Both the position numbers and the translations under genes were made by a program. The notes below the pieces were generated by a model. That model saw only the letters and a list, made by a program, of their open reading frames with translations, was not told the DNA's origin and searched no databases. A stretch of DNA of 64,000 nt, taken from positions 1 to 64,000 of the forward strand of contig JAKOXK010000079.1 in the NCBI GenBank assembly GCA_029781035.1, given 5' to 3'. Shown one piece after another: positions 2,445-4,498 of the stretch (positions within the stretch are counted from its first letter, which is position 1; every line of letters begins with the position of its first letter). This DNA is from Armatimonadota bacterium. GTDB taxonomy: Bacteria > Armatimonadota > Fimbriimonadia > Fimbriimonadales > Fimbriimonadaceae.

Positions 2445-3614
2445 TCAGCCGTGAGTCTTTTGAACTGCCACTTCGATCGCCTTTTCCAGGTATCGGTCGT
2501 TTCCTTGAGAGTCGAACTCTGGTGAAACCTGAACGTCCGCTTGGACAGGATTCTTTTCCAGGCGGACGCCGTCCACTTTGAGATCGACCATTGGGATTTC
2601 GATGTAGGCCCAGGTGCCAATTGCGCTCGGAGACGTGCCGAGGACGTCTCCGGCTGTGTGGTTCCCAACTAGGATCGCCCTCTTCGACTTCTTCATGATG
2701 TAGCTGAAGACCTCCTTCGCACTTCGCGAACCTTCATTGATGATCACGACCAAGGGCCGCCCGTAGCCGAACAACTGATTCCAAGCACCTCCGCGTCCAG
2801 CCGTCCATTGTAGGTTCACCTCCGGCCGGAAGAAGGGGTCACCGTAGCCGTCAGGTTGTCCGCCGAACCCGTCTCGGATGTCCAAGATGAAGGCGTCAGT
2901 GTCCTTGGCCTTGCTATAGACATAGTCCTCAAGCAACTGGCGAAACTTGATGTTCGCCATCGTCCAGAGGTGCATATAACCGATCTTCTTGCCGTCGCGT
3001 TCAATGATCCGCTCGCTCTTTCGGCTCGCGTCCAGGAACATGTCTTGCCCAGGCGTTTCCGAGACGGTGACCAGCGCTCGCTTCTCCTGTACGGACCCGT
3101 CGGGCCCCACGGTACGGTAGTCCAAGGTTACGGATTTGCCGACATTGGGCCGCAGCGAAGCGACGGGCGTGAACGGGTGACCGTCTACTTTGGTCACGAC
3201 GGCACCTTTGCGGATTCCCGCTGCCTCGGCCGACCCGCCATTCAAGACCATCTGGACGGTGTAGCCGTCCCTAGTCTTTTTGAACCAAGCCCCGATGTTC
3301 GGCATTGGCGCAGCCTTGTCTCCCTTTTGAAACCCGTCGAAGAGATAGTAGCCTTGGTCGTCCTGGGTCAGAAAGTCGAAGTGGCTGTCCCCGAATTTCG
3401 CGATCATCGCATCGACGACGTCGTTGAACTCGGAGACGCTCTTGCAGGCCTTCGCTCCAGGCTCAGCATCGCTGAGCAGCCGGTTCATCCGATCGCCGTC
3501 GCTGCTTTGAGCCCAGTAGAGCGTCCGGATTCGCCGGGAAACAGCAGACCAAGCTTGGTCCGCGTCGAATGCGGGCTGTGTCTGCTGAAACGCCAACATC
3601 AAGAGAGGGACCAT
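2445..3614 (-). CDS. S41 family (C-terminal processing / tricorn-type) peptidase, secreted
   Basis: About 389 aa from the chosen ATG at 3614. That start gives MVPLLMLAFQQTQPAFDAD, a short hydrophobic signal-like N-terminus; an in-frame ATG at 3722 would add 36 unconserved residues. A PDZ-like segment is visible (VQMVLNGGSAEAAGIRKGAVVTKVDG; quoted in parts: GGSAEAAGIRKG). The protease core has ILDIRDGFGGQPDG and then the catalytic-serine region INEGSRSAKEVFSYIMKK, with GNHTAGDVLG after it. S41 enzymes use a Ser/Lys dyad and cut exposed C-termini in the envelope. It is divergent from rplA, with both promoters in 3615-3775. Confidence 0.85.
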   Translation of the reverse strand: MVPLLMLAFQQTQPAFDADQAWSAVSRRIRTLYWAQSSDGDRMNRLLSDAEPGAKACKSVSEFNDVVDAMIAKFGDSHFDFLTQDDQGYYLFDGFQKGDKAAPMPNIGAWFKKTRDGYTVQMVLNGGSAEAAGIRKGAVVTKVDGHPFTPVASLRPNVGKSVTLDYRTVGPDGSVQEKRALVTVSETPGQDMFLDASRKSERIIERDGKKIGYMHLWTMANIKFRQLLEDYVYSKAKDTDAFILDIRDGFGGQPDGYGDPFFRPEVNLQWTAGRGGAWNQLFGYGRPLVVIINEGSRSAKEVFSYIMKKSKRAILVGNHTAGDVLGTSPSAIGTWAYIEIPMVDLKVDGVRLEKNPVQADVQVSPEFDSQGNDRYLEKAIEVAVQKTHG

Positions 3615-3716
3615 CGGTGCGATTATTGCGGGAATGGACTCCGAAGTTCCGGGATTTTGCGGGGCGTGCGGGACAGTCCGGCCCACTGAGCGCCCTGACG
3701 GGCCGGCTGGCTGCGG

Positions 3717-3775
3717 TATCATTTCGAACCTGTGGGAGGCCTAGCGCGGCCAAATGGACCACAGGGTGAACCCTC
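3717..3775 (+). promoter_or_regulatory. rplA promoter and structured leader with an L1-binding-like fold
   Basis: A -10-like hexamer (TATCAT, 3717-3722) places the transcript start at about 3729. There a perfect 7-bp stem begins: CCTGTGG (3729-3735) with CCACAGG (3759-3765). It encloses an inner GGCC/GGCC hairpin (3738-3741 with 3748-3751) and an asymmetric internal loop (GA against AAATGGA). GTGGGAGGC followed by an A-rich opposite strand and ACCAC-like closure resembles the L1 site on the 23S L1 stalk. A second hairpin (AGGG, TGAA, CCCT; 3763-3774) overlaps the outer stem and abuts the ATG, so the two folds exclude each other. This suggests L1 feedback on its own translation. Confidence 0.6.
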
Positions 3776-4498
3776 ATGCGCCAACAAAAGAAGAAACAGA
3801 AGCACAGCGCCCGCTACAACCTAGCTGCCAAGACCATCTCGAAAGAGAAGCTCCACGAGCCGACCGAAGCCATTTCCCTCGTCAAGCAGATGGCGAGCGC
3901 GAGGTTCCCCGAGGGAGTCGACCTGAGCATACGGCTCGGCGTCGATCCCCGAAAAGGCGACCAGAACGTCCGCGGCATTACCAACCTCCCGCATGGCACC
4001 GGCAAGAACAAGACAGTCGCAGTCTTGGCCAAGGGAGACCTCGCCAAGGAAGCTGAAGCTGCGGGGGCCGACGTTGTCGGTGACGAGGAACTGATCGCGA
4101 AGATCCAGGGTGGCTGGAAGGAGTTCGACGTCATCCTGGCCACCAACGAGATGGCACCTCAAATCGGCAAGATCGGCAAGATCCTGGGAACCCGAACGCC
4201 GAACAAGAAGAACGGCACGGTCACCGACGCGGTCACACAAGCCGTCAGAGAGATCAAGGGTGCCACGCGCGTCGAATACAGGGTCGACAAAGCCGGCATC
4301 GTCCATATGCCGATCGGCAAGGTCAACTTCTCTGAGGACCAACTACTGGAGAATTTCAAGGCTGCGGTCGACGCAATCGTCCGCGCCAAGCCGGCTTCGT
4401 CAAAAGGACGCTATCTGGTCTCGATGACGGTGAGCTCGACCATGGGCCCGGGGGTCAAGCTCGACCCGACCACGGCCAGCAAGTACAGCGGCCACTAG
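3776..4498 (+). CDS. rplA: 50S ribosomal protein L1
   Basis: 240 aa, close to the usual 230. The sequence is L1 throughout: KTISKEKLHEPTEAISLVKQ, the VDLSIRLGVDPRKGDQNVRG segment, LPHGTGKNKTVAVLAKGD, and the C-terminal signature region (VEYRVDKAGIVHMPIGK; FSEDQLLENFKAAVDAI). It binds 23S rRNA at the L1 stalk and helps release E-site tRNA. In most bacteria it follows rplK (L11); here it is alone between an S41 peptidase and a lipoprotein gene. The ATG at 3776 starts right after the leader hairpins and has only a weak Shine-Dalgarno (AGGGTG, 3763-3768). Confidence 0.97.
   Translation: MRQQKKKQKHSARYNLAAKTISKEKLHEPTEAISLVKQMASARFPEGVDLSIRLGVDPRKGDQNVRGITNLPHGTGKNKTVAVLAKGDLAKEAEAAGADVVGDEELIAKIQGGWKEFDVILATNEMAPQIGKIGKILGTRTPNKKNGTVTDAVTQAVREIKGATRVEYRVDKAGIVHMPIGKVNFSEDQLLENFKAAVDAIVRAKPASSKGRYLVSMTVSSTMGPGVKLDPTTASKYSGH

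Follow-up and report, generated by a model that had tools for sequence, protein, structure and literature searches.

The leader of rplA in the window (that is, the whole stretch of 64,000 nucleotides that was analysed) is very probably, as judged by sequence comparison, an autoregulatory operator for ribosomal protein L1 (uL1). Feedback of L1 on its own synthesis is a well-known kind of control, and blocking of the 30S site is the classical mechanism by which L1 exerts it. The genome belongs to the Armatimonadota (Fimbriimonadales), and the closest relatives of its rplA come from Fimbriimonadaceae and Armatimonadetes assemblies. The gene is present in a single copy, starts with an ATG at 3776 and encodes a full-length L1 protein in which the STMGPG motif is present; rplK is located apart from it, on a different contig (C64). 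The following features can be distinguished at the rplA locus:

3695-3722, forward strand: sigma-70-like promoter (CTGACG at 3695-3700, a 16-nt spacer and TATCAT at 3717-3722)
3729-3735, forward strand: 5' strand of the outer stem, CCTGTGG, with the core GUGG (3732-3735) as a putative mimic of H77
3736-3737, forward strand: 5' side of the internal loop, GA, with the A invariant in the 28-sequence alignment
3738-3751, forward strand: inner stem, GGCC (3738-3741) with GGCC (3748-3751), closed by the loop UAGCGC; its pairs covary in relatives
3752-3758, forward strand: 3' side of the internal loop, AAAUGGA, 7 nt and A-rich, with the last A invariant
3759-3765, forward strand: 3' strand of the outer stem, CCACAGG, with the core CCAC (3759-3762)
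3763-3774, forward strand: weak alternative hairpin AGGG-UGAA-CCCU (AGGG at 3763-3766, CCCT at 3771-3774)
3765-3769, forward strand: GGUGA, the likely Shine-Dalgarno sequence, which overlaps the final pair of the outer stem in its extended form
3776-4498, forward strand: rplA, ribosomal protein L1, 240 aa (TIGR01169, 280 bits, cut-off 216)

Since the -10-like TATCAT lies at 3717-3722, the transcript should start near 3729, in agreement with the start predicted by the initial annotation, and the leader then comprises 47 nt (3729-3775). The fold which that annotation had drawn, CCTGTGG paired with CCACAGG around an inner GGCC hairpin with an asymmetric A-rich loop, is borne out in all its elements at the positions listed. 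The result is an irregular stem with an asymmetric 2/7-nt internal loop (GUGGGAG..CCAC), alike to both the E. coli operator and the organism's own 23S rRNA. The site adjoins the translation start of rplA, the position proper to uL1 operators: the end of the core CCAC is 13 nt from the AUG in the window and 9-16 nt in nearly all relatives, which carry AGGUGA or AGGAGG in place of the window's GGUGA. Where rplA stands apart from rplK, most loci have a -10-like box (TATNNT-like) 7-16 nt 5' of GUGG and, in consequence, the operator probably opens the message there. No terminator-like site (transcription attenuator) was found on the same strand of the leader. Two neighbours on the reverse strand can be mentioned: (i) a divergent S41-like peptidase ORF (2445-3722), whose longest start, at 3722, overlaps the rplA -10 box and whose true start is probably further inside; and (ii) a ribosomal protein L25/Ctc gene (246-875), about 3 kb from rplA.

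The alternative hairpin next to the AUG had been proposed as one half of a two-state switch, in which AGGG-UGAA-CCCU hides the Shine-Dalgarno sequence, or else the outer stem forms, and L1 chooses between them. Both folds do overlap at AGG (3763-3765), and a GGG-N4/5-CCC arrangement is also seen before the start codon of the nearest relatives (L002, L006, L011 and L014). But the AGGG hairpin with a 4-bp outer stem reaches -15.0 kcal/mol, against -18.0/-19.1 kcal/mol for the full stem, a gap of 3-4 kcal/mol; an outer stem of 5 bp is compatible with a GGG/CCC hairpin (-14.9 kcal/mol), so that exclusivity is not forced; and more distant relatives lack the hairpin, having simply AGGAGG or AGGUGA, and keep the operator. 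Conserved in the closest relatives only, such a switch is improbable, and the AGGG-hairpin fold could perhaps exist, on paper, as a minor state.

The operator itself is best followed through its conservation. The leaders compared came both from 30 relatives and from 80 loci in public genomes. The motif precedes rplA in 19 of 19 genomes of the window's family (those with an rplA locus) and in 7 of 11 other members of Fimbriimonadales. It is absent at four of the 30 rplA loci of the order (L003, L013, L020 and L024), which may reflect several separate losses; hence, control at the rplA leader is not indispensable.

Covariation was assessed in a 28-sequence MAFFT alignment, not fitted to the structure, against 500 shuffles. 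Cells paired in the named structure amounted to 85.3% (74.4% when shuffled), cells with double changes to 35 (16.6 when shuffled) and the covariation score to 0.319 (0.134 when shuffled), and in none of these three measures did any of the 500 shuffles reach as high. When the partner was slid by 1-3 columns, pairing fell to 34-49%. RNAalifold, unprompted, returned the same eight core pairs. Both the inner and the outer stem show compensatory changes, and covariation is kept when the window's genus and its look-alikes are removed from the alignment. Within the 28 sequences, UGG/CCA of the outer stem is invariant, and the first core pair is compensated in three more distant leaders (AUGG/CCAU in L058, CUGG/CCAG in L049 and L052); at the outer end, the three pairs between columns 5-7 and 41-43 form in just 43-75% of the sequences. 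Finally, a held-out covariance model (R2), whose training set excluded the window's genus and look-alikes, was run on the 3.4-Mb genome: the rplA leader was the sole strong hit (36.6 bits, E 3e-7), followed by a second-best hit of 15.9 bits (E 0.65). The leader fold is well above chance, and it is conservation, covariation and the held-out model search that exclude chance, not folding energy. The latter does not stand out (z about -1.0 to -1.4), and folding z-scores were discarded as evidence because they are uninformative for a hairpin so short and GC-rich. A search of the leader against Rfam, in gathering and E-value modes, gave no match; sites of this sort are thus missed by routine annotation.

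In the phylum, 50 of 151 Armatimonadota genomes have a hit under strict filters. The locus context was inspected for 29 of the best hits (L152-L180) and, in 28 of them, the site lies just 5' of rplA, so that the position regarded as unusual in the initial annotation is the usual one in these Armatimonadota hits. The gene rplK is immediately upstream in 19 of these 28 loci, and the nine without it all belong to the window's family. On this basis, the simplest reading is that the phylum ancestrally had the site as an intergenic operator between rplK and rplA, and that it stayed with rplA when both genes were separated in the window's family; once the classical pair is broken up, the operator would go with rplA. 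Ten rplK loci were searched for an L1 site 5' of rplK, and none was found: the two hits there are rplA leaders. One hit (L175, 29.7 bits, in genome G093 of family f8) lies in a 3-kb locus where no rplA or rplK was found.

These contexts bear on a second explanation, namely, that a hairpin at the 5' end does no more than stabilise the message, or arises as a by-product of the promoter sequence. The hairpin does begin at the predicted transcript start. Nevertheless, the element is also kept between rplK and rplA, with no adjoining promoter, and conservation extends beyond pairing to the loop letters that match the rRNA site, which makes this explanation very unlikely.

Reading the leader as an L1 operator invites comparison with known ones. 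The rplK leader of E. coli is the established L1 operator, reportedly described by Thomas and Nomura in 1987 (cited in PMC10931766). In our own reading of the pairing, its sequence (NC_000913) is GGG-GA-GCCUC-UCA-GAGGC-GUUAUUA-CCC. Both operators consist of an outer stem, GA, an inner stem and a 7-nt 3' loop ending in A (GUUAUUA in E. coli), and both are located shortly upstream of the start codon; that of E. coli precedes rplK-rplA, whereas that of the window precedes rplA alone. The proposal of an L1 feedback site at the 5' end of an rplA separated from rplK is supported by the fold and by the location of rplK, but its description as reduced does not hold: the E. coli operator has about the same size and geometry, and the size of the leader operator is ordinary.

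The view that classical sites precede the rplK-rplA operon is likewise incomplete, as L1 sites are found (i) before rplK in Proteobacteria; (ii) before rplA in Actinobacteria and Cyanobacteria; and (iii) before both genes in Firmicutes, T. thermophilus and T. maritima (PMC10931766, section 3.1). Since sites before rplA have already been described, the window's operator would belong to a known kind: it shares with them its position and an irregular stem with an internal bulge (PMC10931766). It differs from them in that the window's family has a separate rplA, whose message probably begins with the operator. Armatimonadota are not named among the phyla with L1 sites in that section, and the present case would extend L1 feedback control, with covariation evidence, to this poorly studied phylum.

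The second term of comparison is the L1 stalk (H76-H78) of 23S rRNA, for which the feature is:

About 2180 of the organism's own 23S gene (L111), reverse strand: shortened 23S L1 stalk, with counterparts in relatives (L122-L141)

The leader stretch GUGGGAGGC had been likened to the 23S stalk target. This is right for E. coli 23S rRNA, which has GGUGGGAGGC, but not for the organism's own 23S rRNA, which reads GUGGGAGC. The stalk and the mRNA site share a GGUGG-GA...CCACC core (in E. coli 23S rRNA, GGUGG-GA-GGC...GCC-GACCUUGAAAUA-CCACC); the 3' loop has 12 nt in the rRNA stalk and 7 nt in the mRNA operator. Stalks of relatives were found by pattern search, and all 21 members of the order with a readable 23S gene have GGUGGGAGCUUCGGC[A/G]NCAAUGGAACACCACC or a close variant (GCCGCAAGGC in G019). 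From GGUGG to CCACC inclusive, the stalk spans 32-34 nt in Fimbriimonadales compared with 59 in E. coli; beyond the core, the arm corresponding to helix 78 (helix names follow E. coli, in our reading) is cut to a UUCG-capped stub of few pairs. The same short stalk occurs in three further Armatimonadota families (f8, f12 and f37). H78 is likewise missing from eukaryotic stalks; in bacteria, the stalk head and bridge B9 are made up of H77 and H78 (PMC5309774). The AAUGGA that the organism's 23S rRNA shares with the mRNA loop in the window was considered as a sign of co-evolution and rejected, as the mRNA loops of relatives differ and the 23S sequence is fixed.

That the leader is a site for some other ribosomal protein is barely credible, as it matches the known E. 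coli L1 operator and the H77/H78 base of 23S rRNA in both geometry and letters, and the element is nearly always before rplA.

Under control by L1, protein in excess of free 23S rRNA would bind the module formed by GUGG-GA and the 7-nt loop with CCAC, a copy of the H77/H78 base of the stalk. Bound L1 would cover the leader up to some 14 nt from the AUG and hold the outer stem, with which the GGUGA Shine-Dalgarno sequence overlaps, in such a way that 30S subunits could not start; new 23S rRNA would then draw L1 off and rplA translation would resume. We infer L1 binding, the steric block of 30S subunits, release by rRNA and the exact transcript start. The short 23S stalk offers a natural test of the contacts that let rRNA outcompete mRNA for L1.

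The solitary rplK of Fimbriimonadaceae, which also has its own promoter-like box, has a conserved leader hairpin with the loop YGCUUCCCNC:

Within about 75 nt before rplK (1477-1902) in L115: rplK leader hairpin, with counterparts in relatives (L116-L121 and L181-L209)

Its stem covaries (26 double-change cells against 12.2, with 0 of 500 shuffles as high), and Rfam gave no match for this hairpin. Feedback by L11 through it is a guess. As findings, both this hairpin and the short H78 stalk look newer than the rplA operator. One possible history, to which we give slightly less than an even chance, is that in Fimbriimonadaceae (i) the ancestral rplK-rplA control unit was split; (ii) rplA kept the L1 operator as its 5' end; (iii) the solitary rplK gained a different and unreported hairpin, comprising a bulged U, GA, the loop YGCUUCCCNC and UC, which provides feedback of its own; and (iv) the 23S stalk lost most of H78, leaving the rRNA and mRNA sites for L1 of nearly the same size. 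The strongest hits of the rplK-hairpin model lie before rplK in members of the window's family; the remaining ones that were inspected, including weak R3 hits outside rplK, look like chance.
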